Shown here piece by piece: positions 21,581 to 44,252 of a stretch of DNA of 64,000 nt. The stretch's first letter is position 1; each line of letters opens with the position of its first letter. The stretch covers positions 186,001 through 250,000 of the forward strand of contig JACQWY010000022.1 of NCBI GenBank assembly GCA_016209015.1, given 5' to 3'. The position numbers and the translations under genes are program-made. A model generated the notes under the pieces. It was not told the origin of the DNA. It saw only the letters and a program-made list of their open reading frames with translations, and made no database searches. The DNA comes from Gammaproteobacteria bacterium (lineage in GTDB: Bacteria > Pseudomonadota > Gammaproteobacteria > Ga0077536).

Positions 21581-21583
21581 AGG

Positions 21584-25782: not shown

Positions 25783-27033
25783 TTACTTGACCGTGACCGG
25801 GATGCGCATCCAGGCGCCGTCCTTGTACAGGATGGCCGTGGAGCGGCCGCCCAGTACCACGAGCGTTCCGTCCGGCATCTCGACCGGAGTCTTCAACCAG
25901 GACAGCAGGTTCAACTCCGTACGGTCGGCGGTCTTCCACTTGTCGTTGTCGAGCACGCCGATGAGACCCACGGCGCCGGCGATGACCGGCTGGCCGCCGC
26001 TCGTCAGCGTCATCCCGAAAATGCCTTCCGTGCCGGACGAGGGCGCCGGCGTCCAGGTCACGCCGCGGTCGTGGCTCGAGCGGCTGACACCGGCGGCGCC
26101 GGCGAGCCAGATCGTTTCGCCATGATGCACACCCGTCAGCCAGTAGGCCGGCTCGGGTTCCTTCGGCGACAGGATGGTGTCGCGACGGACCCAGGTCTTG
26201 CCCGCGTCCGTGCTCTGCAGAACCATGCCGAACTCGCCCGCCAGCGTGATCGTGTCGCCTTCGGCGAGCACGACGTTCCAGGAGACGTCGCCCGCGCGGA
26301 ATGCCGGGCCCGGATTGAAGCTGAACGTGATCGAGGGCGCCGGATCCGCATCGAGATCCTTGTTGAGCTGAATGTAGCCCTCGTCGGGATACAGCGTGTA
26401 ATCCTGTTCGTTGACCACCGGACGGCCGCCGGCGTTGGCGACGAACTTGACCGTTTCGGTAATCACGTTGCTGACGCCGAAGTACCACTCGCCCTGCTTG
26501 CCGTCCGGCAGATTCACGACGGGCTGGTCGACGTTCTTGATATCGACCTTCTCCCACTTCTTGCCGTCCGCGCTGTGTGCGACGAGGCCGCGCGCGCCGA
26601 CTGCCCACGCACCGCTCGAGGCGGTGACGATGTCGAGCACCGGCTCTTCGAATTCGGACAGCGACGCGACTTCCGTCACCTTGCTGCCGTCGTAGAGGTA
26701 AATCTTGCCCTTCGCGCTGCCGAGCAGAACCTCGGTGTCGGAGAGCCTGTGAATTGCCGTGAAGTCCACGTTCGGAACGCCGGAGACTTTTTCTAGCGTC
26801 GCGGCATCGCCATTGATCGTGAGCTTGCCCACGAGTCCGAATGCGCCGGATACGATGATCGCTTTCGGTCCCGGCAGGTACGTGCCGCCGAGGAAATCGA
26901 TGACGAGCGGCGTACGCCGATCGACGAGCTTGTCCATGTCACTCGCTGCATTGGCGTTGACGCCGACGAAGCCGAGCGCGAGCAGGCCATACGCCCATTG
27001 CCTGAGCGGAGTGCGAAGCCGATGTTTATTCAT
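25783..27033 (-). CDS. Secreted YCF48-like/BNR-repeat beta-propeller protein
   Basis: The 416-residue protein has an N-terminal signal peptide (positive MNKHRLRTPLRQ, a hydrophobic core, cleavage near ANAAS). It has several Asp-box-like repeats (HSADGKKWEKVD, STDAGKTWVRRD, SSHDRGVTWTP), the hallmark of YCF48/sialidase-type propellers. YCF48 in cyanobacteria is a photosystem II assembly factor. In heterotrophic proteobacteria, homologues recurrently neighbour MMPL/RND transporters and DUF1302/DUF1329 genes, as here, which suggests a periplasmic accessory of that system. The start chosen is the ATG giving a clean signal peptide; longer starts upstream add non-signal sequence. Confidence 0.82.
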   Translation of the reverse strand: MNKHRLRTPLRQWAYGLLALGFVGVNANAASDMDKLVDRRTPLVIDFLGGTYLPGPKAIIVSGAFGLVGKLTINGDAATLEKVSGVPNVDFTAIHRLSDTEVLLGSAKGKIYLYDGSKVTEVASLSEFEEPVLDIVTASSGAWAVGARGLVAHSADGKKWEKVDIKNVDQPVVNLPDGKQGEWYFGVSNVITETVKFVANAGGRPVVNEQDYTLYPDEGYIQLNKDLDADPAPSITFSFNPGPAFRAGDVSWNVVLAEGDTITLAGEFGMVLQSTDAGKTWVRRDTILSPKEPEPAYWLTGVHHGETIWLAGAAGVSRSSHDRGVTWTPAPSSGTEGIFGMTLTSGGQPVIAGAVGLIGVLDNDKWKTADRTELNLLSWLKTPVEMPDGTLVVLGGRSTAILYKDGAWMRIPVTVK

Positions 27034-27211
27034 GCATGAAGCCTTGTGTTGTGATTTACGCGATTGATCTGCGAAACCGCAGGACGGTCGTTCTGGATGC
27101 CGCGAGACCGCGTGCACGACCGCCACCTCCCCCATACTGTGGAGTACGTAACATACCAATAACGCTGCGGGGCAGACAAGATGTAACGGTGTGTCCGGAC
27201 GAGCCCTTTTT

Positions 27212-27700
27212 TCAGGGCGCGAGCGCCGCGTAACGGCCGCGGTAATAGAGCAGCGGCTGCGCCGTCTCGTCCGGATCGACGTCGATGTTCTTGACCTCGC
27301 CGACGAAGATTTTGTGATCCCCCGCCTCGTGGTAGGCGGTGACGTGGCACTCGACGGCCATGAGACGGCCGGTGAGCAGCGGAGCTCCCGTCACACCACG
27401 CTCGTAGCTCACGCCGCCGAACTTGTCGTCGCCCTTCTTCGCGAATGCATTGCTCACGTTCTGCTGTGCCGCCGCGAGCACGTTGATGCAGAACACGCCG
27501 CTGCGGCGTATCGGCTCCAGCGTATCGGAGCGATTGTCCACGCAGATGAGGAAGAGCGGGGGATTGAGCGACAGCGAGGTCACGGCATTCATGGTCAGTC
27601 CATACGGTTTGCCGTCGACGTCGGAGGTCGTGACCACCGAAACGCCGGTCGTCCAGTTGCCGCTAGCTTTGCGAAAGAGTTCGGGAGTGATGTCGTTCAT
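27212..27700 (-). CDS. Flavin reductase-like FMN-binding protein
   Basis: The 162-residue protein has the flavin-reductase-like (HpaC/two-component monooxygenase reductase) fold: GNWTTGVSVVTT, YGLTMNAVTSLSLNPPLFLICV with flavin-contacting residues, FCINVLA, and GDHKIFVGEVKNI. It would supply reduced FMN/FAD to a partner monooxygenase, but none is adjacent. The ATG at MNDITPELF is the natural start; the frame upstream is not conserved-looking. A small hairpin overlapping the stop (GCCCT...AGGGC with an A/T loop) may terminate it. Divergent from the RND transporter gene. Confidence 0.88.
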   Translation of the reverse strand: MNDITPELFRKASGNWTTGVSVVTTSDVDGKPYGLTMNAVTSLSLNPPLFLICVDNRSDTLEPIRRSGVFCINVLAAAQQNVSNAFAKKGDDKFGGVSYERGVTGAPLLTGRLMAVECHVTAYHEAGDHKIFVGEVKNIDVDPDETAQPLLYYRGRYAALAP

Positions 27701-28288
27701 GGCGATGGTTCTGTCTTCGTCCTGTCTTATGGAATGCGATTGTCCGGAACGGGCCGCGCGGGTGGCGCCGAGCGGCGGAGTATAGCCCAGCACGCCGTGC
27801 TGTCGACGCGGCCCGGAGGGGCGCGGTTCCCCCGGACCACGCGCGACCGTCTTGCCGTCGGCTGACGACCCGACCCGTCCGCGACGGTCCTGGTACGGGT
27901 GAACCGTCGAGCCTTCGGCGACACGTGTTCCTCACGGCCGGTGCCAGCCGCGCGGTAAACGCGAAGCGCTCCGGTTCGCACCGTCTGGGGCGGCCGTCCG
28001 GCGGCTCCGAATTTCCTGCCTTCAGTCGGAAATCTGCACGGGCTTCACAAGCCCGGATACGCTGGCGTACGCTTCGAATCCTCCGGGTTTAGGGGCGCTC
28101 GTGCGCGCCAGCCCGGCGGAATCGGCTCGAGTGAAGGAATGGTGCGTTTGTTGTCAGCAGGCAACAAAACCGGCCTGAATGCATCACTATGTTTACTCTC
28201 CGCAACAGCTATGGCAGACTCCGCGCGACACCGACCGAACCGGACCGGGCGCGGTTTGCTATAAAGAACTGAACCTTGAGGGGGAATT
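27701..28288. promoter_or_regulatory. 588-bp divergent control region upstream of the RND transporter
   Basis: No gene is seen in this spacer. The segment from about 28130 to 28260 is less GC-rich. It contains an inverted repeat GTTTGTTG...CAACAAAAC (28146-28170) that could be an operator, and a GAGGGGG ribosome-binding site at 28278-28284. Assignment as promoter or operator is by position only. Confidence 0.4.
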
Positions 28289-30727
28289 TTGGAAAAGAAG
28301 CACCCGCCAGCAATGAAGGAGACGCGCGGTCAAGCCATCGCCAACTGGCTGATGGACCGCAAGTGGATTTCCTTCATGATCATTTGCGTGCCCACGCTCA
28401 TGCTCGCGTTGCACATCCCGAAAATCGAAGTCTATTCGCGCTTTGCGGACCTCCTGCCCGCCAAGCATGACTACATCGTGACCTACAACCGCATGAAGCA
28501 GACCTTCGGCGGCGCGAACGTGGTCACGATGGCCCTGGAAACGACTGACAAGAACAGTGACATCTTCACGACCGACACGCTGAACAAGGTGCGCCGCCTG
28601 ACCGAGGAGATCGACCTCATCCAGGGGGTGAATCACTATCAGGTGGCGAGCATCGCCCATCCCAAGATCCGTCGCGTCCGCACGACCGCCGGCGGCATGA
28701 TCAAGTCCGAGCCCGTGTTGCCCAAGCAGATCCCGACCGACGCGGCGGGCTTGAAGCAGTTGCGCGAAGAGTCGTTCAACAACGACATCGTGTACGGCAC
28801 GTACATCTCGGCAGACGGCCGTTCCGCGCTGATCCTCGCGGGCTTCGACGAAGAGCGCCTCAACTACGTCCAGATTCACACCCGCCTGCAGCAACTGAAG
28901 GCCGAGGTCGAGAAGGACGGCAAGACGAAGCTCTTCATCGCCGGCGAGCCGATGCTCAAGGGCTGGATCTACTTCTACTCCAAGGAGCTCAAGGTCATCT
29001 TCGGCGTGACCCTGCTCGTCATGGTCGCGCTGTTGTGGATACACTTCGGCTCGATCACCGGCGTCGTGGTGCCTTCGCTCGGTACAGGTCTGTCCGCAAT
29101 CTGGGGCCTCGGCTTCGTGGGCTGGATGGGCTACAACCTCGACCCGCTGATTCTCGTGGTGCCGATTCTGATTTCGTCTCGAACGGCGAGTCACTGCGTG
29201 CAGATGATGGAACGCTACTACGACGAAATCCGGCTCGGGCGCGAGCGCGAAGCGGCGGTCCGCGTCGCGATGGGCGAGCTGATTCTTCCGGCATCGCTCG
29301 GCATCCTCGCCGACGCTTTCGGTCTTCTCGTGCTCGCGCTGTCGTCGATGCCGATGATCGCGAAGCTCGGTTACTACTGCGCGTTCTGGGGGACCAGCAA
29401 CCTCGTGACGGTGGCCATTCTCGTGCCGCTCGTCATGTCGCTGCTGCCGACGCCGACCGTGACGCGGCAGGAAGAGCACAAGCACCTGCCGTCGCGCATC
29501 ATGCATACCATGGGCGTGTTCCTGGTCGGTGAGAAGGCGACTTACACCGTATTCGGGTTCTCCGCGCTGCTCGCCGTCTGGGCGTTCTACTACGGCTGGA
29601 CGGTACAGATCGGCGAGAGCAAACCCGGATCGCCGATTCTGTTCCCGGATTCCGAGTACAACGTCGCGGCCGCACACATCGCGGACCAGTTCGCGGGCGC
29701 GAACCAGCTCAGCATCTTCTTCGAGGGCGATGCGCCCCACAAGATGAAGGATCCGGAAGTCGTCGCGACCATGGAGGAGTTCGGACGTTACATGTCGAAC
29801 ACCTTCAACTACGGTGGCACGCGTTCGATCCCGCATCTGGTGCGTTCGATCAATCGTCTGTATCACTACGACGATCCGCGCTGGTCGCTGATTCCGGCGA
29901 CCCAGAAGGACATCGGCAACACGCTGTTCATGTACGAGGCCGGCGCCGCGGTGCCGGGCGTCATTCTCGAGTACATGGACCTCGAAGGCCGCACGGCGAA
30001 CTTCGTCATCTTCTACAAGGACGCGACGGGCAGGACCGTGCACGAGGCGATTGCCGCCGCGAAGTCGTTCCTGGACAAGCACCCGCTGAAGGGCGTCACG
30101 CCTCGTTTCGCGGGCGGCATCATCGGCACGACGGCAGCCGCGAACGAAGAGACGGAAGCGTCCGATCTCAAGATGACGACGTCGATCATCGTCCTGGTGA
30201 CGATCTCGATCATCGTGGCCTATCGCTCGCTGTTCGCCGGTCTGATGGTGTTCATCGTTCTCATCCTCTGCGTGATGACGAACCGTGCCTTCATGACGAT
30301 GCGCGACATCGGCCTGAACGTGAACACGCTGCCGGTGACCTCGGTCGGTATCGGTGTCGGCGTCGACTACACGATTTACATGCTCGACCGTCTGAAGGAA
30401 GAGGTCCGCCACCGTTCGCTCATCGACGGCATCATCACCTCGATGCGTACGACCGGCGCGGCGATTCTCTTCACCGCGGTCACGGTGCTCGCGGGCATCG
30501 TGTACTGGATTCCGGGGTCCTCGCTGCGTTTCAACAGCGAAATGGCCCTGCTTCTGTGTTTGCTGTTGACGAGCAACATGATCGGCGCCATTACGCTGAT
30601 TCCGCTGTTCGTGCGTATTTTCAAGCCCGGATTCGTGATGGAGTCGCACATCGACGACGCCGACACGAAGATGGACCAGTCGGTCGGCGGCTGGCAGGCC
30701 GACGCGATCAGTAAGCAGCATGCTTAG
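28289..30727 (+). CDS. MMPL-type RND superfamily transporter
   Basis: The 812-residue inner-membrane protein has the duplicated RND architecture. Each half has one TM helix, a large periplasmic domain and a five-helix block (first block ~residues 225-430, second ~620-800). The MMPL/HpnN signature VGIGVGVDYTIYMLDRLKEE-like segment and its first-half counterpart (LVVPILISSRTASHCVQMM) are visible. HpnN and MmpL relatives move lipids (hopanoids, mycolates) from the inner membrane. The TTG at 28289 is chosen because GAGGGGG lies five bases upstream; an in-frame ATG at 28313 has no ribosome-binding site. Followed by the DUF1302 barrel gene after 72 bp. Substrate unknown; hydrophobic lipid or sterol-like cargo inferred. 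Confidence 0.9.
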   Translation: MEKKHPPAMKETRGQAIANWLMDRKWISFMIICVPTLMLALHIPKIEVYSRFADLLPAKHDYIVTYNRMKQTFGGANVVTMALETTDKNSDIFTTDTLNKVRRLTEEIDLIQGVNHYQVASIAHPKIRRVRTTAGGMIKSEPVLPKQIPTDAAGLKQLREESFNNDIVYGTYISADGRSALILAGFDEERLNYVQIHTRLQQLKAEVEKDGKTKLFIAGEPMLKGWIYFYSKELKVIFGVTLLVMVALLWIHFGSITGVVVPSLGTGLSAIWGLGFVGWMGYNLDPLILVVPILISSRTASHCVQMMERYYDEIRLGREREAAVRVAMGELILPASLGILADAFGLLVLALSSMPMIAKLGYYCAFWGTSNLVTVAILVPLVMSLLPTPTVTRQEEHKHLPSRIMHTMGVFLVGEKATYTVFGFSALLAVWAFYYGWTVQIGESKPGSPILFPDSEYNVAAAHIADQFAGANQLSIFFEGDAPHKMKDPEVVATMEEFGRYMSNTFNYGGTRSIPHLVRSINRLYHYDDPRWSLIPATQKDIGNTLFMYEAGAAVPGVILEYMDLEGRTANFVIFYKDATGRTVHEAIAAAKSFLDKHPLKGVTPRFAGGIIGTTAAANEETEASDLKMTTSIIVLVTISIIVAYRSLFAGLMVFIVLILCVMTNRAFMTMRDIGLNVNTLPVTSVGIGVGVDYTIYMLDRLKEEVRHRSLIDGIITSMRTTGAAILFTAVTVLAGIVYWIPGSSLRFNSEMALLLCLLLTSNMIGAITLIPLFVRIFKPGFVMESHIDDADTKMDQSVGGWQADAISKQHA

Positions 30728-30799
30728 GGTTTCTGGAGCTCACCAGTAGCTTTTAGAAAGTGGTTGTTTTGTATGGGGGAAATGATGGGAGATAGCACG

Positions 30800-33388
30800 A
30801 TGAAAAGCACGCTACGCGCTTTGTCATTGCCTATGTTCGCATTGGGTTCAGCACTGGTGGTTTCAGTGCCTGCTCACGCGCGAATCGTGGTGGAAGGCCT
30901 GGGCGGCGAAGTCGAAGTCAAGGGTTACCTGTCGACTGAGGCTCGCGCCCGTATGGGTTCGGAGAAATACCTGACCCAGTGGTTGAACCGTCTGGAGATC
31001 AACGGTTCGGTCAAATACAAGGACGTCGGTCCGTTCCGTGAATTGAGCCTGGTGACGATCATCCGGCCGGAATACGACGTTGCGCAGGACTACGGTTCGT
31101 CCCTCACGGACGGCCGCGTGGGCCGCGACGCCGACAAGCCGTCCTACCTCGGCAACCCGTTCAACTACAACACCGACGGCGTCGGCTTCGGCGGCTTCGA
31201 TCCGTTCCCGGCCTGGGGCGGTCAGCTCGGCGCGACCGGTACCGGCGGCTTGTGGAAGAACGTCACGAACGGGATCTGGGATCCCGCGAAGATGAACCAG
31301 TTCGAGACGATCCTGAATCACAACGCCGTCGGCGGTGTCTATACGAACAATGGCAACGTGAATCGGTCGTTGATGTCCGCGTTCCCGCTCGTCGCGGCGA
31401 TCGGCAACACGCATCTCAACTGCCAGAACTGCCAGGACGTGAACAACAGCTTCCTGGACACGGCGATGAACAACACGGATTCAAGCGGGCGTCTCTACCC
31501 GTTCCGTGAATTGTTCGTGGATGCCGTCACCGACAACTGGTGGTTCCGTATCGGCAAGCAGCAGGTGGTGTGGGGCAAGGCGGACTTCTTCCGCATGCAG
31601 GACATCGTCAACCCGGTGGACTTCGGCCAGCACTTCTTCTTCGACTCGTTCGAGGACATCCGCATTCCGCAGTGGATCGCGAACGTCCAGTACAAGGCCG
31701 GCGACATCGGCTTCCTGACGGACAACGCGTTCACGGTGGTGTGGAACTTCGACCGCTTCCAGCGCGTCGGCCTCGGCAGCTCGACTGCGGCCTGGGCGCA
31801 TCCGTTTTCGAAGGACCTCTCGGTGTTCGCGAACTTCAACACCTACTTCTCCGTCGATCCGTGCTTGAGCGCGGCGAACGAGCAGTTGCGTGCGGCGAAC
31901 TTCGCGGCGGCGGGCGGCACGGGCCTCGGTGCGACGTTCCAGGCGAGCCACGTCTGCGGCGCGCAGGGTCCGCACGATCCGCGTCTGCCGTCAGGCTTCG
32001 GCCAGCCGGTCGGTACGGCATACGAGAAGATCCCGGAGTGGAGCCTCGAGAACACCCAGGGTGGTGGTCGTTGGGAATTCCGTGCGGGCGAGCTGCACAT
32101 GGCGCTGTCCTACTACAACCACTTCCAGGACACGCCGGTGTTCCGCTTCCACACGATCAACATGCTGCAGGATTTCGGCATGTTCGGTGGCAACTCGGCG
32201 CTGGCGACGGCGAACCTCGGCGCTAACGGCAAGGTCATTGCCGACCTCGCCGGCGGCGCGCTCAATGCGGCGGGTGGCGTTGCCAACCCCAGCGTGTTCG
32301 GTATTAACGGCACGGGCACGGGTCTCATCAACGCCCTGAACGGCCCCGGGGGTCTGTCCGGCGTTGGCGCGAACCTCTGCCAGCAGTATCAGGGTGCGGA
32401 GTGCTTCCGTCTGCGTATCGTGGAGCCGAAGCAGGCCTTCGCGTTCCTGGCAGCGGGCAATCCTGCGACCTCTCTGGGCCTGACCGATCCGCTCCAGAAC
32501 GTGCCCCTGACTCTGCGAAAGATGCTTTCGCGCGGCAAGGCGACGAACGTCTTCAACGGTCAGAACCTGGACCGTCAGGCGACGTACGCGGACGCCGCGA
32601 AATACGCGCTGGCGACCAAGGACGCGACCCAGTTCTACCGCTACTCGGCTAGCGCCGGCAGCGGCCTGACGGGCGGCCAGACTGACATCATGTACGAGAA
32701 GGAACACACCGTCGGTCTGTCCTTCGACTACTTCGAAGGCTGGTCGGGCGTCGTGCTCCGCGTCGAATCCTCGTTCACGCCGAACTCGCTCGTGACGGAC
32801 ACGATGGAGCCTGACTGGGTCGGCCACAGCGACATCCTGCGGTGGAGCATGGGCTTCGACCGTCCGACGTTCATCAAGCTGCTGAACAAGGACCGCACGT
32901 TCTTCCTGTCGGCGCAGATCTTCGACACCTACTACCTCGATTACCACACGGGCGTAGGTTCTGACGAAGGCCACACCGGCATGCTCACGAACGAGCACAA
33001 CTACATCACGACGTTCTTCTTCCAGACCCACTACATGCGGGACAAGATCATTCCGCTGGGCTTCCTGGTGTGGGAAGAATCGTCGAATGCCTGGGTCGGA
33101 GGCTTCAACACCGAGTGGCTGATCGACAACCACTGGTCGATCAAGGGCGGCTTCCACATCATTTCGGGCGATGGCACCATCGGTACGCATGATGCGGGTC
33201 CGTTCACGGCCTTTATCCAGCCAGTTGGATTGAGCAATAGCCGCAACCCGAATCAAGTGAGCGGTTGGAACCGCCCGGCCGGCAGCTTCGACTACCTGCA
33301 GCAGGGCCCGCTCGGCGTGGCGCACGAGGGCATCGCCGCTCTCGACGCGAACGACGAAGTGTTCTTCCAGGTCAAGTACCAGTTCTGA
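30800..33388 (+). CDS. DUF1302 outer-membrane beta-barrel protein
   Basis: The 862-residue precursor has a classic signal peptide (MKSTLRALSLPMFALGSALV, cleavage at AHA-R). It continues as an aromatic- and glycine-rich sequence with alternating beta-strands and a C-terminal aromatic residue (FFQVKYQF), as expected for an outer-membrane barrel. It matches the DUF1302 pattern: an N-terminal WLNRLEINGSVKYKDVGPF strand region, the WFRIGKQQVVWGKADFFRMQ motif and IVNPVDFG. The ATG at 30800 has GGGAGA seven bases upstream; earlier in-frame starts would spoil the signal peptide. It is probably cotranscribed with the RND transporter and ends at a strong terminator. Likely the outer-membrane conduit of the locus. 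Confidence 0.9.
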   Translation: MKSTLRALSLPMFALGSALVVSVPAHARIVVEGLGGEVEVKGYLSTEARARMGSEKYLTQWLNRLEINGSVKYKDVGPFRELSLVTIIRPEYDVAQDYGSSLTDGRVGRDADKPSYLGNPFNYNTDGVGFGGFDPFPAWGGQLGATGTGGLWKNVTNGIWDPAKMNQFETILNHNAVGGVYTNNGNVNRSLMSAFPLVAAIGNTHLNCQNCQDVNNSFLDTAMNNTDSSGRLYPFRELFVDAVTDNWWFRIGKQQVVWGKADFFRMQDIVNPVDFGQHFFFDSFEDIRIPQWIANVQYKAGDIGFLTDNAFTVVWNFDRFQRVGLGSSTAAWAHPFSKDLSVFANFNTYFSVDPCLSAANEQLRAANFAAAGGTGLGATFQASHVCGAQGPHDPRLPSGFGQPVGTAYEKIPEWSLENTQGGGRWEFRAGELHMALSYYNHFQDTPVFRFHTINMLQDFGMFGGNSALATANLGANGKVIADLAGGALNAAGGVANPSVFGINGTGTGLINALNGPGGLSGVGANLCQQYQGAECFRLRIVEPKQAFAFLAAGNPATSLGLTDPLQNVPLTLRKMLSRGKATNVFNGQNLDRQATYADAAKYALATKDATQFYRYSASAGSGLTGGQTDIMYEKEHTVGLSFDYFEGWSGVVLRVESSFTPNSLVTDTMEPDWVGHSDILRWSMGFDRPTFIKLLNKDRTFFLSAQIFDTYYLDYHTGVGSDEGHTGMLTNEHNYITTFFFQTHYMRDKIIPLGFLVWEESSNAWVGGFNTEWLIDNHWSIKGGFHIISGDGTIGTHDAGPFTAFIQPVGLSNSRNPNQVSGWNRPAGSFDYLQQGPLGVAHEGIAALDANDEVFFQVKYQF

Positions 33389-33404
33389 GCTGACGCTTTC
33401 GTCG

Positions 33405-33430
33405 CCCGCGGCTCCGCACGGAGCCGCGGG
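33405..33430 (+). terminator. GC hairpin after DUF1302 gene
   Basis: CCCGCGGCTC and GAGCCGCGGG form a perfect 10-bp stem with a 6-base loop, 16 bases after the stop. It lacks a T-tract and precedes the stronger terminator at 33451. Confidence 0.5.
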
Positions 33431-33450
33431 CCGACGCGAGAACCTTCAAC

Positions 33451-33478
33451 GGGGAGCTTCGGCTCCCCGTTTTCTTTT
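33451..33478 (+). terminator. Rho-independent terminator of the RND-DUF1302 unit
   Basis: GGGGAGC-TTCG-GCTCCCC (7-bp stem with a stable TTCG tetraloop) is followed by GTTTTCTTTT. This is a textbook intrinsic terminator and separates the transporter/barrel unit from the downstream DUF1329 gene. Confidence 0.88.
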
Positions 33479-34110
33479 CCGGTGTGCGGAGGGGCCGGGA
33501 CCTCGCCCCGGGCAGGGCCGCTCCAGCGATGTATCCGGGGACACGCGTTGCGCTTCGTGTCCGTGTGACGGGACCGAAGTTGGATCCCGGAATTGCGGCG
33601 TGCCTGAAGGGGACGCCGAATGGTGCGGCCTCGCATCGGATGTGCCGCGGATGTAGGGCGTCGAGCGCGCCTTCGAGAACGGGGCGAGCGGGAGACGTCT
33701 CCCGGCCGAAATCTCTTCGCGATTTGAAATCAGATTCCGGACCCGGCCCGCATGGTGCGATGTGCGCGTGCGGCGCCTGCGTTGTTCGTTCGACTCTCGA
33801 TCCGACCTCGATTCCGTCGCCGCTCCTCGTCGCGGAGGATCAGCGCTGCTCATTCCGGACTCCGTCGATCGTGTGCGTGCCGCGACGTCTCGGTGTTCGA
33901 TGCACCCGGCGCGCATCGCCTACCGCACTCCATTCCCTGCGGGATCGCACGCGCGCATCGCAGTGGCATAGGTAGACGCGATGAGAGCCATATGAAAATC
34001 GTATGTTCGGGATGCGTGCCCATGCGCGAGATCAAGCGCGTCGCCGCTTTTCGACAGCAGTCGCGCGAGTGCTCATGCGCGCGTCCGGATCTGACACGAC
34101 GGGAGCAAAT

Positions 34111-34198
34111 ATTTGGTTCTTCTCCAGACTGAGGGGTCAGTCGACGCATTCCGCCTCGGCTCATGCCTGTCGCCCTCGCGCAGGCGAGGTTCCAGTCG
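34111..34198 (+). repeat. ~90-bp repeat, left copy of inverted pair
   Basis: Two blocks are shared with the copy at 34306-34398 in opposite orientation. ATTTGGTTCTTCTCC at 34111-34125 (block to 34134) differs by a few bases and a 2-base gap. A 31-base block at 34168-34198 has only two mismatches. The second block contains its own palindrome, CCTCGCGCAGGCGAGG. No open frame explains it. Confidence 0.75.
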
Positions 34199-34305
34199 GT
34201 GACCCAGGGCACGCGCAGTGAACCTCGGACTTTCGAGAGCGCCGTTCCGCTCCGCGCTCGTCTTCTGCGCTGGCCCTGCGGTTCGACCTCGGCGCCGAGG
34301 CTGAA

Positions 34306-34398
34306 CGACTGGGCCCTCGCCTGCGCGAGGGCGACACGTGGGAAATACGCGCCGCGGCGTGCCGAGGAACAGCCTCACAGTTCGGAGAAGAGCCAAAT
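34306..34398 (-). repeat. ~90-bp repeat, right copy of inverted pair
   Basis: Reverse-oriented copy of the 34111-34198 repeat: the 31-base palindromic block lies at 34306-34336 and the GGAGAAGAGCCAAAT block at 34373-34398. The spacing between blocks is about the same in both copies (33 and 36 bases), so the whole unit was duplicated. The two copies could fold into a long imperfect hairpin enclosing ~105 bp. Confidence 0.75.
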
Positions 34399-34626
34399 AG
34401 TTGCCGGCGTGAAGGCGCGAAAATACGCATGATCGACGCGCAAAATAATGGTGAAGCGCCGCATCGCTGCACGTATAATCGAACGCTGAGGTCTGCGCGG
34501 TTGCGTCGACATGACGCGCCGGTGATTTCCCGTTTCAGCAATTGGCGGGTCGGCAAACTTCGAAACGATTAGACGAACATCTCGCCTAATCTGCATTGCA
34601 GTAGAGGATTAGAGGAGCGTAAATTT

Positions 34627-35988
34627 ATGAAGAAGCGTATTCATTACGCATTGCTTGCTGCTTTTGCCGCGGCGCCATTCGCGACGAACGCATTTTCTCC
34701 TGAAGACCACATCGCCTGGGTCAAAGCGAACGAGGCCGCGAAGCCGCAGTTCGTGGACGGCGATACCATCACCTTCGACAAAGCCGAACTGGTCAAGCCG
34801 TTCATTCCGGCGGAGTTCCAGAGCGAGCTCGTGTTCGACGGCATGGAGATGAAGATCAAGGATGCCGGCGACATCTCGCCGCCGCAGGCCTACCAGGACG
34901 CGACTGCGAAGTTCGCCGGTCAGGCGAAGCTCGGCGCCGACGGTGCGATCGAGAACTACACGGCGGGTCGCCCGTTCGATCCGGCGACGTTCACGCCGGG
35001 CAGCAAGGAAGACGGCTTCAAGGCGATCTGGAACTTCGGCTACCGCTGGCAGTACAACGGTCTGAACATCAACGAAATCCACTGGGTGTGGGTCCGCAAG
35101 GGCGGCAACCACGACGGTCATGAAGTGATGAGCGACCGCTACAAGGACTACTACAAGGGCGGCGGCACGTTCGAGCGCGTCCTGACGGGTCCTTATCAGC
35201 GCGTGTACTTCTCGCACCGTGCGGATCTCGTGGACACCGCCTACAAGGTTCCGGAGAAGTTCGCCGACGGTACGGAGTTCCGCGAGTACACGGGCTTCAC
35301 CTCGCCGTTCGACATCGCCGGCACGGCCTTCCTGATCCTGCGCTACGACGACCCCCGCAAGACCGACGACTCCTGGGCCTACATCCCGTCGCTCCGTCGC
35401 GTCCGCCGCATCTCGGTGGAAGTGAAGTCGGACTCGCTGCTCGGCACGGACCATACGCTGGAAGATTTCTATTGCTTCTCCGGCCGTCCGCTCGAGCACA
35501 ACTGGGAATACATCGGCTCGGCGAACGTGTTGGCCGTCGCGCGCTCGCGCAACACCGACACGGTCTACTACGGCCCGAACGGCATGGTGCCGCTGGATGA
35601 CTGGGCGCTGCGCCTGACGGACGTCGTCCGCCAGACCCCGAAGCGCGACAACCATCCGTACTCCACGAAGTTCCTCTACATCGATCGCCAGTCAGGCGAG
35701 TGCTACTACGCGAACGCGTTCGACCGCGGCGGCAAGCTGTGGAAAGTGTGGCAGCTCTCGAAGGCCTTTACGGACGATCCGCAGTACAAGGCGCAGACCG
35801 GCAAGTTCAAGGGCGACGTGACTCCGGAAGGCATCCGCGTGAGCTCGTTCCAGAGCATCAACGTGATCGACCTGCAGAACAGCCGCGGCACGCTCGTGCC
35901 CTGCCGTGGCGACAGCTACCCGCAGACGAAGATCGCGGACGTGAAGCGCGTCCTCGACGTGAACTACCTGACCGAAGGTCGCCGCTGA
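34627..35988 (+). CDS. DUF1329 periplasmic protein (LolA/LolB-like fold), copy A
   Basis: The 453-residue precursor has a signal peptide (MKKRIHYALLAAFAAAPFATNA). The DUF1329 pattern follows: NYTAGRPFDP, WNFGYRWQYNG, DSWAYIPSLRRVRRIS, a glycine-rich LLGTDHTLEDFYCFSGRP segment and KFLYIDRQSGECYYANAFDR. DUF1329 belongs structurally with the LolA/LolB lipoprotein-carrier clan, so a periplasmic chaperone for a hydrophobic molecule is likely. DUF1329 and DUF1302 genes recurrently occur as a pair in proteobacteria, usually near RND transporters. The start ATG follows AGAGGAG. A strong terminator lies 40 bases after the stop. It is only moderately similar to copy B at 38796. Confidence 0.92.
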   Translation: MKKRIHYALLAAFAAAPFATNAFSPEDHIAWVKANEAAKPQFVDGDTITFDKAELVKPFIPAEFQSELVFDGMEMKIKDAGDISPPQAYQDATAKFAGQAKLGADGAIENYTAGRPFDPATFTPGSKEDGFKAIWNFGYRWQYNGLNINEIHWVWVRKGGNHDGHEVMSDRYKDYYKGGGTFERVLTGPYQRVYFSHRADLVDTAYKVPEKFADGTEFREYTGFTSPFDIAGTAFLILRYDDPRKTDDSWAYIPSLRRVRRISVEVKSDSLLGTDHTLEDFYCFSGRPLEHNWEYIGSANVLAVARSRNTDTVYYGPNGMVPLDDWALRLTDVVRQTPKRDNHPYSTKFLYIDRQSGECYYANAFDRGGKLWKVWQLSKAFTDDPQYKAQTGKFKGDVTPEGIRVSSFQSINVIDLQNSRGTLVPCRGDSYPQTKIADVKRVLDVNYLTEGRR

Positions 35989-36027
35989 GCGAACGTCGCG
36001 TCGGATTCCCCGCAATGGGGGTGCATG

Positions 36028-36057
36028 CAACGGGCCGCACTGCGGCCCGTTGTTTTT
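36028..36057 (+). terminator. Rho-independent terminator after DUF1329 copy A
   Basis: CAACGGGCCGCA pairs with TGCGGCCCGTTG (12-bp stem) and is followed by TTTTT. Confidence 0.88.
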
Positions 36058-36640
36058 GCGAGGGACGACCTTTCAATTCGCGAGAAGCCGTCGACGCCGA
36101 AATTGTTTGAACCATCCCTGCCCACGCCGGAACAGACGCTTGCACACCCGCCGTCGCGTTCGCGGTGCCGCAGCCTGCGGCAGCCCGGGCCTCGTAATCG
36201 ATGACCGGCGTGCGGCCGCTGTCGACGTTGGAGTATGCGTCTTCCGCGGTGGAGAAGAGGAAGAGAGGAGCGATCCAACAGGGGACGCCACGGCGCTGCC
36301 GCGGCCGCAACCCTTCCGCCCGTCCAGGGCGACTCCACGGGCCGCATCGCGGCCCGTGCTTTTCGCCTCCTGCGCAGTGAACCGCCCGCCGTGGTGCAAG
36401 TCCGTCCTTAGCGCTCCGACTCGTTCGTCGCGCGCCGCGCGGCGTGAACCGCGCCCCCGTCGGCGCGGACGAACTCTGCGTGTGACCCCGAGCGCCGCTA
36501 CGCGGGGAGGCAGCGCCGCGACCTGCCCGTCGCCGGGGACCCGCTCGGTCACTCCGTTCCGCACGCGCGGGACGCGCCCGTCATTCCAGCATTCGAGAGG
36601 AGGGCAAGCCCAGGAAGCATTCATTGCGCGTCGCGGTGTC
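36058..36640. other. 583-bp spacer with a second terminator-like hairpin
   Basis: No gene is convincing here. It contains a hairpin (36336-36358, CACGGGCCGC...GCGGCCCGTG then CTTTT) that closely resembles the terminator after DUF1329 copy A. Together with the DUF1329 remnant downstream, this suggests an old duplication of the DUF1329 gene 3' region followed by decay. Confidence 0.5.
36336..36363 (+). terminator. Orphan terminator-like hairpin
   Basis: A 10-bp stem CACGGGCCGC/GCGGCCCGTG with a 3-base loop is followed by CTTTT. The stem core matches the copy A terminator (CGGGCCGC/GCGGCCCG). It does not follow any intact gene. Confidence 0.55.
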
Positions 36641-36815
36641 GTGGCGACGCCGCCCGGGACGCGTATGAGCTCGTTCCAGAGCATCGACGTCGTCGACGTC
36701 CGGAACGCGCGGGGAACGCGCGAGCCCTGCCGCGGCATCGGCTATCCGAACACGAGGAGCGAGGACTTCGAACGTGTCCTGGAGGTGAACCATCTGACCG
36801 CAGGCCTGCGCCGAG
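36641..36815 (+). pseudogene. C-terminal remnant of a third DUF1329 gene
   Basis: In one frame the codons read VATPPGTRMSSFQSIDVVDV, then NARGTREPCRGIGYPNT, then FERVLEVNHLTAGLRR. This is clearly homologous to the last ~55 residues of DUF1329 copy A (TPEGIRVSSFQSINVIDLQN, then SRGTLVPCRGDSYPQT, then VKRVLDVNYLTEGRR). No upstream part of the gene is recognisable and no start codon or ribosome-binding site is in place. The frame runs past the homologous end to a stop near 36898. A strong 15-bp hairpin (36849-36883) follows. I read this as the decayed tail of a duplicated gene. Confidence 0.8.
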
Positions 36816-36848
36816 TCGCCTTTCGCGGCCGGAGCCCCGATAATAGGC

Positions 36849-36883
36849 GGCGCGCGGCGGACCCGGCCGGTCCGCCGCGCGCC
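36849..36883 (+). terminator. Strong 15-bp GC hairpin after the DUF1329 remnant
   Basis: Arms 36849-36863 and 36869-36883 are perfectly complementary with a 5-base loop, followed shortly by AATTTTAG. It probably terminated the lost DUF1329 gene and now insulates the HEAT-repeat gene, which starts 38 bases later. Confidence 0.55.
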
Positions 36884-36921
36884 GTTCCGGAATTTTAGCC
36901 CAGTTCGAGGGTCACACCGTC

Positions 36922-38097
36922 ATGACTAAGCCCAGCTCCTGGTTTGCCCGCCTCGCGGCAGGCGTCACGCTCGCCCTGACTCTGAACGCCCCGGCTCCGG
37001 CCGGCGAAGCGGCTCCGGCCCCGAGCAAGATACTGCTCGATGCCGTGAAGGTTGCCCGCGAGCTGTCCGGCTCCCGCAATGTCTACGACCGCATGCTCGG
37101 TGCCGGCGCGCTCGTGGAAGCCGGCGATCCGAAAGCGCTCGAGATCATCGCTGCTTACATCAAATCCGATGACATCGTCGTCCGCCGCTCGGCAATCGAC
37201 ACGCTGCTGAACGTCAATCATCCGAGCAGCACGAACCTCCTCTATCGTATTGCCTCCGAGGATCCGCAGGTCCTCGACCTGATGATCGAATCGCTGGCCA
37301 CGCTGCCGCGCGAAGACATGAGTGACCTCCTCGTCGGCGCGCTGCGCGTGCCGAATCTCCGCCTCCAGAAGAACGCGCTGCAGGCGCTCGCGCCGATCAT
37401 GACAGGCAGCCAGGAAAAGGATCTGCGTGAGCTCATCAAGGACCCGCAGAGCGCCAACCTCGTCCGCGCCTATGCCTACTACGTGCTCGTGCGATTCAGC
37501 CACGGCACGGCGGACATCGAGCAGGTGCTGCAGATCGCGAAGTCCGACGATCTCGATCAGCGCGAAGTCGCCGCGGTCACGCTCGGCGCGATCGATTCCG
37601 CGGCGTCGAAGACCGCGCTCGCAGTGCTCGCGAAGGAGCAGGAGGAACGCGTGTCGATCGCCGCAGTGGCGAGTAACGCCGGGCTCGGCGACGACAAGGC
37701 GATCGCCCAGATGATCCAGCTCATCGCTTACGGCAAGCCGATGCAGGCGACCGTCGCCGCCGGCGCGCTGAAGCGCATGCCGGCGAATCTCGCGGGCCAG
37801 ATCACCGCCACGCTGCTCAAGTGCTGCCAGCTCAAGCCGGATGCCGCGACGCGGCTCATCGAGTCCTGGGGCTCGATCACCGCGAATCCGGATTCGATCT
37901 TCAAGTGGGGACTCGCGAACGCCGACGCCGACATCCGTCTGCAGACGCTGCAGGTCATCGGACGGCGCCGCGACAAGAACGTCCTGGAGCAGGTGGCCGG
38001 TTTCCTCGCCGACGAGGATCCGGCGATCCGCGGCATGGCGGCCTGGGCCATCATCCACACCGTGGGCGACGGGACCGTCGCGGGCGTCGAGACCTGA
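36922..38097 (+). CDS. Secreted HEAT-repeat protein
   Basis: The 391-residue protein has a signal peptide (MTKPSSWFARLAAGVTLALT, cleavage near PAPAGEA). It then consists of repeated helical pairs of HEAT/PBS-lyase type, for example VRRSAIDTLLNV, LQKNALQALAPIM, QREVAAVTLGAID, IRLQTLQVIGRR and IRGMAAWAIIHT. HEAT solenoids are scaffolds for protein interactions; no catalytic motif is visible. It sits between the DUF1329 genes and 37 bp ahead of a Nudix gene, so a periplasmic scaffold role in the RND/DUF1302/DUF1329 locus is plausible. That is an inference from position. Confidence 0.8.
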   Translation: MTKPSSWFARLAAGVTLALTLNAPAPAGEAAPAPSKILLDAVKVARELSGSRNVYDRMLGAGALVEAGDPKALEIIAAYIKSDDIVVRRSAIDTLLNVNHPSSTNLLYRIASEDPQVLDLMIESLATLPREDMSDLLVGALRVPNLRLQKNALQALAPIMTGSQEKDLRELIKDPQSANLVRAYAYYVLVRFSHGTADIEQVLQIAKSDDLDQREVAAVTLGAIDSAASKTALAVLAKEQEERVSIAAVASNAGLGDDKAIAQMIQLIAYGKPMQATVAAGALKRMPANLAGQITATLLKCCQLKPDAATRLIESWGSITANPDSIFKWGLANADADIRLQTLQVIGRRRDKNVLEQVAGFLADEDPAIRGMAAWAIIHTVGDGTVAGVET

Positions 38098-38134
38098 CAC
38101 CCGCTTGCCGGGAGGCGCGCGAGGGCGCGGCAGC

Positions 38135-38737
38135 ATGGCTCAGCGTAAGGACGAGCAGGGCGATCCGGCAGGCTGGGAAGTTCTGAGCTCGGACGAGCTC
38201 TTCAGCCACGCCTTCTTCCGATTCCGCAAGGATCGTTGCGCGCTGCCGAACGATCGCATCATGCCCGCGTACTACGTCATGGAGTTCGTGGACTGGGTGA
38301 ACGTCGTGCCGCTGACCGACAGCGGCCAGATTGTCCTCGTCGATCAGTATCGCCACGCCGCGCGCAAGCGCTTCTACGAATTTCCGGGAGGCACGCTCGA
38401 AGCGAAGCTCGAGGAATCGCCGGAAGAGGCCGCGCGGCGCGAGCTGCTCGAGGAGACGGGCTACGCGCCCGGCAGGATGTCGTACCTCGGGCTGCACTAT
38501 CCGAATCCCGGGCTTCAGGACAATCGCATGCACGTCTTCCTCGCGACGGGCTGCACGAAGGTGTCGGAGCCCGCGCTCGACGCATACGAGGATCTCGAGG
38601 TCGAGCTCGTACCCGTTGCCGATTTTCTGCGCTACATCGAACAGGGACGTCCCATGCACTCGCTGATGATGGCGTCATTCGTGCTCGCGCTGCCGGCGAT
38701 CAACAAACATCTCGCGGAGCCTGCTACCGTAGGCTGA
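38135..38737 (+). CDS. Nudix hydrolase, ADP-sugar pyrophosphatase-like
   Basis: The 200-residue protein has a canonical Nudix box: GGTLEAKLEESPEEAARREL followed by LEETGY. It is preceded by the IVLVDQYRHAARKRFYEFPGG lead-in typical of ADP-ribose/ADP-sugar pyrophosphatases of the NudF type. It would hydrolyse a nucleoside diphosphate linked to another moiety, using Mg2+. It is cytoplasmic (no signal), in contrast to both neighbours, which are secreted. It lies 37 bp after the HEAT gene and 58 bp before DUF1329 copy B and is probably cotranscribed. Start is the ATG at MAQRKDEQG. Confidence 0.9.
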   Translation: MAQRKDEQGDPAGWEVLSSDELFSHAFFRFRKDRCALPNDRIMPAYYVMEFVDWVNVVPLTDSGQIVLVDQYRHAARKRFYEFPGGTLEAKLEESPEEAARRELLEETGYAPGRMSYLGLHYPNPGLQDNRMHVFLATGCTKVSEPALDAYEDLEVELVPVADFLRYIEQGRPMHSLMMASFVLALPAINKHLAEPATVG

Positions 38738-38795
38738 ACAGGCGCACCGCGCCCCGCGGGAGCCGACGAATTCATTCATATCCAGAGCCAAAATC

Positions 38796-40121
38796 ATGTT
38801 TCACAGCTTCCAGGCGCGGCCCCGCCGCGCACCCGCGTCCGTCGCGAGCCTCCTGTCCGCCACGGCCCTTGCACTCGTGCTGTCCGCGGGCGTGCGCGCT
38901 GGGACGTTCGATCTCGACATGGCGCAGATCCAGGAGACCTCGCCCGCACCGGGCACGGTGATCGGCACTGATAACGCGGATCAGTTCCACCAGATCCTCG
39001 ACGCCGATCTCATCGCGCTCATCAAGCAGGGTTGGCTCACGATCAAGGTGGGCGAGCCCTTGTCCTTCGAACCGCACAAGGCGTATATCGCGGCGACGGA
39101 TCAGTACGGCGGCCAGACGAAGCTCGGCGACGCGCCGGGCGTGCTGCTCGATTACACCGCCGGCCGGCCGTTCCCCGTCGAGCCCTCGACCGACGACCCG
39201 CGCGCCGGCGAGAAGATCGCCTGGAACACGCGCTATACGTTCACGGGCGACACGGGCTCGGTGCCGGAGATGTACTGGCAGTATCGCGACATGCGCGGCC
39301 AGAACGTCGAACGCGAGCTCGAATTCGAAGCGAACTCCATGCGCTTCATGTATCGCCACTTCATCGATCCGAAACCGAACGTGCCGCAGAACCCGTACAA
39401 GATCTACAGTGCGCTCACTTTGAAGGCACTCGAGCCCGGCGACGTCGCCGGCACGAAGCTCCTCATCATGTACAACAGCGACGATCGCGAGGACGAGCAG
39501 GGCTGGACCTACGTGCCGCTGCTGCGCCGCGTGCGCCGGATCGCGACGACCGCGCGCACCGACAGCTTCCTCGGCAGCGACGTCAGCGTCGAGGATTTCC
39601 TCGGCTACAGCGGCCGCATCATGGACATGACCTGGGCCTACAAGGGCACGACCTACGTGCTGTTGCCGATGTACGCGCACGACAAGGTCGAGATCTCGTC
39701 CCGCAAGGCGCGCAACTACGACTATCACTTCGTGGACTTCGAAGGCCATTCCGGCTGCTTCCCGAAGGTCACCTGGCAGCTCCGCAAGGTCTATGTCGTC
39801 GAAGGCCGTCCGGTGCGCGAGGATCATCCGCTCTCCCGGCGCCTGTTCTACGTCGATGCGCAGACGAGCTGGCCGATCATGGCGAAGCTCTACGATCGCG
39901 CAGGGGTACTGTGGAAGATCCTGCTCGGCGGCATCTCGCACCCGGATTCCCACATGCCGGAGAACCGCGGCACGGGCGTGCCGATGTTCGATTCCTCGTC
40001 CGCGATCGATCTGCAGAACAAACACTGCACGACGATTCAGGCGCTCACGCTGATCAACCCGCCGGACGTGAATCAGCGCGAGTTCGAACCCTCGACGCTG
40101 GAGGTCGGTGCGCATCGCTGA
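38796..40121 (+). CDS. DUF1329 periplasmic protein (LolA/LolB-like fold), copy B
   Basis: The 441-residue precursor has a signal peptide with a basic start (MFHSFQARPRRAP), a hydrophobic core ALALVLSAGV and cleavage near VRAG. DUF1329 features are present: LLDYTAGRPFPVEP, IAWNTRYTFTGDTG, GWTYVPLLRRVRRIAT, SFLGSDVSVEDFLGYSGR and RRLFYVDAQTSWPIMAKLYDR. It is clearly a distant paralogue of copy A rather than a recent duplicate. The presence of two diverged carriers may mean two cargo forms or sequential relay steps. It ends 272 bp before an esterase gene. Confidence 0.9.
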   Translation: MFHSFQARPRRAPASVASLLSATALALVLSAGVRAGTFDLDMAQIQETSPAPGTVIGTDNADQFHQILDADLIALIKQGWLTIKVGEPLSFEPHKAYIAATDQYGGQTKLGDAPGVLLDYTAGRPFPVEPSTDDPRAGEKIAWNTRYTFTGDTGSVPEMYWQYRDMRGQNVERELEFEANSMRFMYRHFIDPKPNVPQNPYKIYSALTLKALEPGDVAGTKLLIMYNSDDREDEQGWTYVPLLRRVRRIATTARTDSFLGSDVSVEDFLGYSGRIMDMTWAYKGTTYVLLPMYAHDKVEISSRKARNYDYHFVDFEGHSGCFPKVTWQLRKVYVVEGRPVREDHPLSRRLFYVDAQTSWPIMAKLYDRAGVLWKILLGGISHPDSHMPENRGTGVPMFDSSSAIDLQNKHCTTIQALTLINPPDVNQREFEPSTLEVGAHR

Positions 40122-40393: not shown

Positions 40394-41299
40394 ATGGCAA
40401 GTCCGCAAGCGCAAGCGCTGATAGATCTGTACAAGAACTGGGGGGCCGCGATGGCTGCGAATCCCTCAATGGGCATCGAGGAGATCCGCGAGATCTTCGA
40501 TCACTGGGGCGATGTGACCGGCGAGCCGGGCGGCGTCGACTATCTCGAGGTGGATGCCGCGGGCGTGCCCTGCCTCTGGGCCGTGCCGAAGGGCTGCGCC
40601 ATGGACCGCGTGCTCGTCTGCACGCACGGCGGCGGCTACGCCGTCGGCTCGATGTATTCGCATCGCAAGATGTTCGGCCACATCGCGAAGGCCGTCGGCT
40701 GCCGCGCGATCATCCTCAACTACCGCCGTTCGCCCGAGTTCCCGCATCCGGCACAGAACGAGGATGCAGTCGCGGTCTACAAGTGGCTGCTCGACCAGGG
40801 CATCAAGCCCAACCACATCGCGACGACCGGCGACTCCGCGGGCGGCGCGCTCTGCACGTCGATGGTTCTCGGCGCGCGCAGCAAGGGCCTGCCGCTGCCG
40901 GCCGCGATCATGCCGCAGTCGCCGTGGTACGACATGGAGGCGAAGGGCGCGACGCTGAAGTCGAATGCGGCGGTCGACGCGCTCGTCCAGGAGCCGATTC
41001 TGCAGGGCATGGTCAGCATGTTCCTCGGCGAACAGTCGAAACAGGATCCGCTCGCGAATCCGCTCTACGCGGACCTGAAGGGCCTGCCGCCGATCTACAT
41101 CCAGGTGGGCGGTGACGAGACGCTGCTCGACGATTCGCTGCGCTTCGTCGAGAAGGCGAAGGCCGCGGGCGTCGACGTGAAGTGCGACGTCTATCCCGAG
41201 ATGCAGCACGTCTTCCACTTCCTCGCCGGCAAGGCGCCGGAAGCGGATAAGGCGATCAAGCAGTACGCCGACTGGGTGAAGCCCAAGCTCGGACTCTGA
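40394..41299 (+). CDS. HSL-family alpha/beta-hydrolase (esterase/lipase)
   Basis: The 301-residue protein has the hormone-sensitive-lipase family oxyanion motif HGGGY, the nucleophile elbow GDSAGG, a catalytic aspartate in VGGDETLLDD and a catalytic histidine in MQHVFH. It is a cytoplasmic carboxylesterase, probably acting on short to medium acyl esters. The start follows GGAGG (TGGAGGTCGAAA-ATG). A terminator follows the stop, so it is probably expressed on its own from a promoter in the 272-bp upstream spacer. Confidence 0.9.
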   Translation: MASPQAQALIDLYKNWGAAMAANPSMGIEEIREIFDHWGDVTGEPGGVDYLEVDAAGVPCLWAVPKGCAMDRVLVCTHGGGYAVGSMYSHRKMFGHIAKAVGCRAIILNYRRSPEFPHPAQNEDAVAVYKWLLDQGIKPNHIATTGDSAGGALCTSMVLGARSKGLPLPAAIMPQSPWYDMEAKGATLKSNAAVDALVQEPILQGMVSMFLGEQSKQDPLANPLYADLKGLPPIYIQVGGDETLLDDSLRFVEKAKAAGVDVKCDVYPEMQHVFHFLAGKAPEADKAIKQYADWVKPKLGL

Positions 41300-44226: not shown

Positions 44227-44252
44227 AGTGGCTCCGTGTCTGTCCGTGCGCT

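Follow-up and report, generated by a model that had tools for sequence, protein, structure and literature searches.

The analysed window comprises 64,000 nucleotides of a 5.7 Mb gammaproteobacterial genome (GCA_016209015.1, contig JACQWY010000022.1, positions 186,001 to 250,000) and harbors, at positions 25783-40121, a set of genes representing a candidate envelope transport system for a hydrophobic compound. Genes encoding a YCF48 propeller and a flavin reductase are located on the minus strand, and those encoding an RND pump, a DUF1302 barrel, a DUF1329 protein (DUF1329a), a HEAT-repeat solenoid, a NUDIX hydrolase and a second DUF1329 protein (DUF1329b) are divergently oriented on the plus strand (Table 1). 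All genes named in a first-pass annotation made from the DNA letters were found where it had placed them. The span it had assigned to them, 25783-40121, contains real genes but omits that the set forms the middle of a longer conserved cluster. Signal-peptide-like N-terminal stretches were detected by a hydropathy script in the YCF48, DUF1302 and HEAT proteins and in both DUF1329 proteins, and the same script showed none in the neighbouring flavin reductase, hormone-sensitive-lipase-type esterase, short-chain dehydrogenase and NUDIX proteins. A membrane fusion protein or TolC-type outer-membrane factor of a tripartite HAE1 pump was not found among the ten locus proteins by Pfam and NCBIfam searches.

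Table 1. Predicted genes and a terminator-like site in and around the transport locus of the window (E-values are given after the family accession or model name).
Feature	Position	Strand	Remarks
Upstream arm: acyl-CoA ligase, 2-oxoacid oxidoreductase, protein 15660-16616, thiolase, short-chain dehydrogenase	8654..22461	+	CaiB-like gene on the minus strand
YCF48/COG4447-like secreted beta-propeller (AmeC-type)	25783..27033	-	PF14870 2.6e-6, 27.3 bits versus cut-off 27 (marginal)
Flavin reductase (HsaB/HpaC-like)	27212..27700	-	PF01613 8e-48; NCBIfam HsaB model 2.6e-45, below its cut-off
Inner-membrane HAE3/MMPL-like RND pump (AmeD-type)	28289..30727	+	PF03176 MMPL 2.2e-28, over cut-off
DUF1302 outer-membrane barrel	30785..33388	+	C-terminal end FFQVKYQF; family assigned via relatives
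Intrinsic-terminator-like hairpin	33448..33471	+	After the RND-DUF1302 pair; 10-pair stem, T-rich tail; pattern match only
DUF1329a, secreted, LolA-like	34627..35988	+	PF07044 1.6e-39; PF17131 LolA_like 2.6e-18
Secreted HEAT-repeat solenoid, family-specific extra component	36922..38097	+	PF13646 3.1e-22
NUDIX hydrolase, optional	38135..38737	+	PF00293 1.3e-16; absent in many of the relatives fetched
DUF1329b, second secreted LolA-like protein	38796..40121	+	PF07044 1.1e-57; PF17131 LolA_like 1e-18
Hormone-sensitive-lipase-type esterase	40394..41299	+	PF07859 3.4e-52; GESAG-HSL model 4.2e-77, below its cut-off; missing in some relatives
Short-chain dehydrogenase	41427..42209	+	PF13561 1.4e-53
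Catabolic arm: MaoC, CaiB/CoA-transferase III, alcohol dehydrogenase, aldehyde dehydrogenase, acyl-CoA dehydrogenase, alpha/beta hydrolase, small protein	43207..51002	-	

The components of the locus are co-conserved in related genomes. Twenty-one HEAT loci of relatives were fetched, with a 57-residue fragment of a further genome (G010, contig C94) left out. DUF1302 is located upstream of HEAT on the same contig in all 21, and DUF1329b follows downstream, with or without an intervening NUDIX gene, in 20 of them, the last locus ending at a contig edge. DUF1329a was present in 12 and absent from nine of these loci; in relatives possessing both genes, DUF1302 and DUF1329a are separated by about 100 bp. 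Within 36 genomes of the family, including that of the window, HEAT and a close RND gene (at least 61% identity) occur together in 21, HEAT alone in two, RND alone in four and neither in nine (Fisher p 3e-4, uncorrected for kinship), and both HEAT-only genomes have contigs beginning in DUF1302. On a wider scale, DUF1302 was detected in 90 and DUF1329 in 66 of 369 genomes of the class (E 1e-8), and all 66 genomes encoding DUF1329 also encode DUF1302. Both genes lie no more than 1 kb apart in 56 of these 66 genomes and show no pair within 1 kb in the other ten, as computed from selected table places and not from every row. Neither family gave a match in 14 control genomes at E 1e-8. With HEAT flanked by DUF1302 and DUF1329, and DUF1302 and DUF1329 so commonly adjacent, this co-conservation gives good support to the kind of system that had been proposed at first sight, namely a trans-envelope system for hydrophobic compounds. 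A lack of co-conservation in related genomes, which the first-pass annotation had named as part of what would refute its proposal, was looked for and not found.

Judging from homology searches, HEAT was added to a widespread core specifically in this lineage, since it is confined to this family in the searches of class, phylum and relatives. It was found in 23 genomes of the family, that of the window included, and in none of 22 genomes of other families (search of 58 relatives, E 1e-8). Matches were obtained in two of the 369 class genomes at E 1e-25, both belonging to this family and one being the window's own, and in one of 398 phylum genomes at E 1e-20, again the window's own; the class and phylum searches scored at most 3-5 candidates per genome, which makes the copy numbers minimum values and means that a weakly similar HEAT protein may have escaped detection. 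No HEAT match was obtained in G007 and G015, two other members of the family within the class sample. In the window genome, the window's own gene was the sole match at E 1e-8, and a HEAT profile applied at E 1e-4 detected no member in 15 loci, comprising 12 stretches of the window genome near other DUF1329, RND or monooxygenase genes and three loci from other genomes.

Within the window and all 21 fetched loci, HEAT occupies the same place. It could be argued that HEAT is a mere neighbour within an island and unrelated to transport, given that catabolic islands can carry unrelated genes and that the NUDIX gene in the next slot comes and goes. This explanation is improbable: in contrast to the NUDIX gene, HEAT is retained between the DUF1302/DUF1329a end and DUF1329b throughout the 21 fetched loci (one of which ends after HEAT), its product features a signal-like N-terminus, and its stringent matches in the class all fall into this family.

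The structure of the HEAT protein was modelled with AlphaFold2 based on 22 sequences, resulting in a confident model of 22 helices (predicted local distance difference test score, pLDDT, 90.7; predicted template modelling score, pTM, 0.85). Residues invariant in the alignment include H100, P101, E314, W316, W329 and W375. Designed repeat proteins account for most of the sequence matches in the PDB, and the Foldseek list consists of generic solenoids; across the comparisons, the PDB matches are mainly designed alphaReps, importins, PP2A and proteasome proteins. In a VIA-align comparison, repeats of the proteasome proteins Rpn1/Rpn2 occupied the top rows (up to Z 15.8, root mean square deviation 6.3 over 339 residues), although the program warns that repeat proteins easily reach high Z values; the listed PP2A, designed-repeat and importin rows showed deviations of 13.8-18.9. 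The Rpn1/Rpn2 repeats form closed toroids. The comparison suggests a tight, ring-like curvature of the modelled HEAT solenoid.

Regarding the RND pump, its score against the NCBIfam HAE3 model TIGR00921 (E 5.1e-38, 130.6 bits) stays below the cut-off of 351.9, and weak matches in the PDB were obtained to the HpnN structures 5khn (4.9e-5) and 6wu0 (6.1e-4). A crude hydropathy script yielded 10 candidate membrane stretches and not 12, the stretch at residues 624-674 being long enough for two. The motif G(V/I)DY (GVDY or GIDY) of the second repeat is kept in 28 of 28 aligned RND proteins. The gene is part of the locus in the window and ten relatives and is absent from a locus spanning its place in 11 relatives; linkage is not judgeable in G012 and G029, whose contigs begin in DUF1302. 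All 11 relatives without a linked RND gene keep one elsewhere, with 75-82% identity to that of the window (in G034, a fragment located at the end of a contig), and two or more close RND copies occur in some genomes. A tree calculated for the window protein, 20 close relatives and seven paralogues covers eight of the 11 unlinked genomes and leaves out the close RND genes of G017, G024, G031, G033, G034 and G035 as well as second copies elsewhere. Since linked and unlinked copies fall into one supported group apart from the seven paralogues, they represent the same pump lineage, which was moved, or duplicated and lost. The window genome also has a second cassette (L128, contig C24 of G000), comprising RND, YCF48 and DUF1302 genes in a row and a DUF1329 gene about 5 kb further on; the HEAT profile did not match in this cassette. 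The YCF48 family profile matches the propeller adjoining the RND gene in L128 (E 2.4e-22) and those beside RND genes in cassettes of two other genomes (L169, E 5.2e-18; L168, E 7.2e-18).

The designation of the outer-membrane protein as DUF1302 holds by way of its relatives: the window protein alone gave no Pfam match even at E 10, and nine of the 16 aligned sequences hit PF06980 (best E-value 4.5e-24); the window protein shares 44-54% identity with the other 15. Its reported length of 862 residues applies to a start at the ATG at 30800; starts at 30785 and at the TTG at 30764 result in 867 and 874 residues, respectively. The alignment includes the window protein and 15 of 22 fetched homologues, the omitted ones being cut by contig ends (two), partial (one) or apparently interrupted by stops (four). 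The in-frame stops in these four relatives were dismissed, as their positions are upstream of the true start. No solved relative of DUF1302 was detected by PDB sequence search at E 1; the structural model is of low confidence (pLDDT 53.5), and its Foldseek matches are outer-membrane barrels.

Compared with solved proteins, DUF1329a gave LolA-like matches over 60-71 residues (3bk5, 9tp6, 4z48) and one chance-like match. In total, 11 DUF1329 matches were counted in the window genome. Three of these are DUF1329a paralogues 71-75% identical to the window's (L132, L133 and L134 on contigs C28, C36 and C55 of G000); the 20-kb stretches around them contain no close relative of the RND or DUF1302 proteins of the locus, and a distant RND gene (profile E 1.6e-5) is located about 4 kb from the paralogue in L133. 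Between DUF1329a and HEAT, a remnant of a DUF1329a-type C-terminus was observed at 36644-36811 (59% identity over 56 residues, E 2e-16), which probably represents a decayed tandem duplicate.

The transport genes form the centre of a conserved catabolic island of roughly 20-40 kb, as obtained by mapping the window genes onto the loci of same-family relatives. The order of its upstream half, with genes missing from some of the loci that reach that far given in parentheses, is acyl-CoA ligase, (CaiB-like), (2-oxoacid oxidoreductase), (protein 15660-16616), thiolase, (short-chain dehydrogenase), YCF48 and flavin reductase, both on the minus strand, and (luciferase-like monooxygenase). The middle consists of (RND), DUF1302, (DUF1329a), HEAT, (NUDIX), DUF1329b, (hormone-sensitive-lipase-type esterase) and short-chain dehydrogenase, and is followed on the other strand by MaoC, CaiB, (alcohol dehydrogenase), (aldehyde dehydrogenase), acyl-CoA dehydrogenase, alpha/beta hydrolase and the small protein. 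Several genes of the upstream arm recur before YCF48, and the arm at 43207..51002 is collinear, in relatives whose contigs extend that far. The small protein at 50625-51002 was detected in 26 of the 36 family genomes and gave no match in the 22 genomes from outside the family.

The core families of the locus were already known, and are under-studied. They have been described as AmeABCD, as an operon controlled by AphS, AphR and AphT, and in part among genes for growth on Tween 20 and in a benzene-degradation cluster. By regarding the mechanism as not established, the first-pass annotation overlooked AmeABCD (PMC6394551), and the lipid or sterol cargo it suggested found no specific support at this locus; a marker enzyme deciding between a steroid, monoterpene or alkane cargo was not found. 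AmeABCD of Castellaniella defragrans 65Phen comprises DUF1302 (AmeA), a protein of the DUF1329/LolA superfamily (AmeB), COG4447 (AmeC) and an HAE3 RND pump (AmeD), and is likewise located within a genomic island for hydrophobic-compound catabolism; its deletion causes monoterpene sensitivity, and a Nile Red assay was interpreted by the authors as export (PMC6394551). Of these features, DUF1302 (through relatives), secreted DUF1329/LolA and secreted COG4447/YCF48 proteins were identified at the window locus. In contrast to AmeABCD, YCF48 is divergent from the RND-DUF1302 pair, a second DUF1329 and HEAT are added, and the DUF1302 protein is larger (about 862 versus 605 residues). The fixed A-B-C-D order is replaced by RND, DUF1302, DUF1329a, HEAT and DUF1329b. 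Because of this unmatched cassette order and the HAE3 score below the curated cut-off, the locus was not filed as an AmeABCD member; by analogy, it most likely works like AmeABCD.

Based on these results, the locus is proposed to encode an Ame-like system for envelope transport of a hydrophobic compound on which the surrounding catabolic island acts, with a probability of roughly 0.55. The proton-driven RND pump would extract the substrate, or a hydrophobic intermediate that is toxic, from the inner membrane or from the periplasmic leaflet of that membrane, with the YCF48 propeller docking on the pump. The LolA-like DUF1329 proteins may bind the molecule in a hydrophobic pocket and ferry it across the periplasm, DUF1302 would form the outer-membrane end, and the HEAT solenoid could serve as a periplasmic scaffold or ring joining carrier and barrel parts. 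Net transport is more likely directed outward than inward, serving to control membrane load during growth on a toxic substrate; this direction is preferred with modest confidence because the only direct transport data found in print, the Nile Red results for AmeABCD, point outward. A more elaborate version is a long shot: the HEAT ring might be a conduit or docking collar between the DUF1329 carriers and DUF1302 in a distinct five-family machine confined to one uncultured gammaproteobacterial family, and the two DUF1329 proteins, where both are present, might constitute a LolA/LolB-like relay facing the inner and the outer membrane.

Several observations weigh against the proposed system. The first repeat of the RND pump lacks an acidic residue at the place corresponding to the second-repeat motif (residues ~293-303) in the window protein, the 20 close relatives and the seven paralogues, this place reading ISARTASH in the close relatives and ISSRTASH in the window. 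HpnN- and MmpL3-like pumps generally carry an acidic residue in both repeats, and such a residue is usual in proton-coupled pumps. As the paralogues share its absence, it represents a trait of the wider RND lineage. Moreover, the gene run of the window is interrupted after DUF1302 by the terminator-like hairpin and a 1.2-kb insert; terminator-like sites in the region number five, versus 9.0 in shuffled sequences. The small protein at 50625-51002, taken as an island marker, follows the distribution of HEAT less closely than the RND gene (HEAT and marker together in 20 of 36 genomes, only HEAT in three, only the marker in six, neither in seven; p 0.018, uncorrected for kinship). Gene order and transcription are unlike those of ameABCD, and the RND gene is separable, as it is missing from the locus in 11 relatives. 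The Nile Red difference in AmeABCD was slight, was recorded with carbonyl cyanide m-chlorophenylhydrazone (CCCP) present and did not occur in acetate-grown cells (PMC6394551). Furthermore, deletion of AmeABCD led to poor growth on the substrate (PMC6394551), and a Delftia strain lacking a DUF1329 gene grew less well on phenanthrene (as cited in PMC13101534); both phenotypes are as compatible with uptake as with efflux.

The main rival explanation is uptake that serves the adjacent pathway. In this case, the same machine would run inward, with DUF1302 admitting the growth substrate, DUF1329 carrying it inward and the RND pump delivering it into or across the inner membrane to the catabolic enzymes. 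This reading fits the catabolic setting, as the transport genes sit within the conserved island, and is possible, if not the favoured one. In line with it, PP_0765, PP_0766, PP_2018 and PP_2019 of Pseudomonas putida are needed for growth on Tween 20 (PMC10866462). The DUF1302 and DUF1329 genes among them show the same phenotype as the genes for a periplasmic protein and for a transporter of the multidrug-efflux type; the pairs are unlinked by their locus numbers, as is RND in the 11 relatives, and no HEAT protein is mentioned in the accessible part of that account. Co-folding of the P. putida proteins gave weak contacts of DUF1329 with DUF1302 and RND and a strong contact between RND and the periplasmic protein PP_2018 (PMC10866462); these co-folds, like the Tween 20 phenotype and the benzene cluster described next, also count in favour of the Ame-like system itself. 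A highly expressed 'nanopod' gene cluster of the anaerobic benzene degrader Ca. Anaerobenzenivorax encodes DUF1329, a YCF48-related protein, an MMPL transporter and a porin-like protein, and its authors think that it may facilitate benzene movement (PMC13101534); the Delftia phenanthrene phenotype points in the same direction. The Nile Red data on AmeABCD, read by their authors as export, stand against inward transport.

It is less likely that YCF48, DUF1329 and HEAT are assembly or stability factors for the RND pump and the barrel and not carriers, although chaperone-like or membrane-fusion roles were proposed for AmeB and AmeC (PMC6394551) and HEAT solenoids are generic protein-binding scaffolds, consistent with the alphaReps, importins, PP2A and proteasome proteins among the structural matches. 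Both DUF1329 proteins match the LolA_like family, and the three DUF1329a paralogues of the window genome have no close RND or DUF1302 relative within their 20-kb stretches (the RND gene near L133 being distant), which speaks against this reading. A solvent-stress or outer-membrane-vesicle module of the 'nanopod' type, with no defined cargo, appears improbable. DUF1302 and DUF1329 proteins are contained in Delftia nanopod preparations (PMC3110197), and a betaproteobacterial operon of COG4447, COG1033, PF07044 and DUF1302, controlled by AphS, AphR and AphT within aromatic regulons, was suggested to act against toxic aromatic concentrations and in solvent stress (PMC6449761). The lineage-specific coupling of the present locus to one catabolic enzyme set speaks against such a module. 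In Burkholderia sp. 383, genes for a flavin monooxygenase, a COG657 esterase and dehydrogenases lie close to the four-family operon (PMC6449761), a setting reminiscent of the window island.

The BstABC sterol transport system of Methylococcus capsulatus also features an RND pump with periplasmic partners, but BstB (PhnD-like) and BstC (TRAP T-component) belong to other families, and its cargo and context are sterols and sterol synthesis (PMC10942540). Such partners were not found at the locus, where Pfam searches identified DUF1329, YCF48 and HEAT, and DUF1302 via relatives. BstC forms an entirely helical ring around a central pore (PMC10942540); HEAT resembles it only in being helical and perhaps ring-shaped, a likeness drawn from the description and not from an alignment, and the absence of BstC among the listed structural matches for HEAT excludes nothing. 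A HEAT partner is not mentioned in the accessible portions of the open-access accounts of these systems; the word 'heat' is absent from the texts of PMC6449761 and PMC13101534, and 'solenoid' from the latter.

The locus is real, conserved and functionally coherent. New features are the HEAT subfamily, the second DUF1329 protein, the conserved embedding in a catabolic island and an RND pump that is unlinked yet kept in 11 relatives. The passage of hydrocarbons, terpenes and lipids across the Gram-negative envelope by means of a pump lacking the usual fusion protein and TolC has been viewed in different ways: in several papers, the same or overlapping families were read as serving efflux, solvent stress, growth on an ester or movement of benzene. 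Through its conserved island, the present system is coupled to a single pathway across much of one bacterial family, and it contributes a part specific to this lineage. Relatives with and without HEAT, with linked or unlinked RND and with one or two DUF1329 genes offer a comparative handle on its essential parts and cargo.

Further observations concern the neighbouring sequences. A luciferase-like monooxygenase gene is located beside the flavin reductase in five fetched relatives' loci, two of which were checked with Pfam (e.g., L095:15162-16568, L105:5109-6539). It is missing from the window's locus; a 65% identical counterpart resides on contig C62 of the window genome, in which the query has 55 matches. 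The proteins encoded at 15660-16616, 50625-51002 and 51366-51788 recur in the island and match no Pfam family over its cut-off; an SCP2/sterol-carrier identity considered for the latter two was dropped, as no Pfam match was obtained at E 10.

Between DUF1302 and DUF1329a, a dispersed repeat of about 285 bp is present (34112-34395). It has 122 matches in the genome, counting the query itself and short self-complementary matches, and includes dozens of almost complete copies with 84-94% identity; some lie in tandem, many at contig ends. At gathering scores, Rfam gave no match in the window, including this repeat and the 1.2-kb gap. Loci with the most similar RND genes in named records originate from gammaproteobacterial metagenome assemblies (groundwater, Lake Baikal and elsewhere). 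Contigs of public metagenome-assembled genomes titled Klebsiella pneumoniae (CAMATU, CAMCQE, CAMAXW; L073, L079, L084, L091) also bear RND genes sharing 69-82% identity with that of the window; they look like members of the same uncultured family, and their record titles look wrong.

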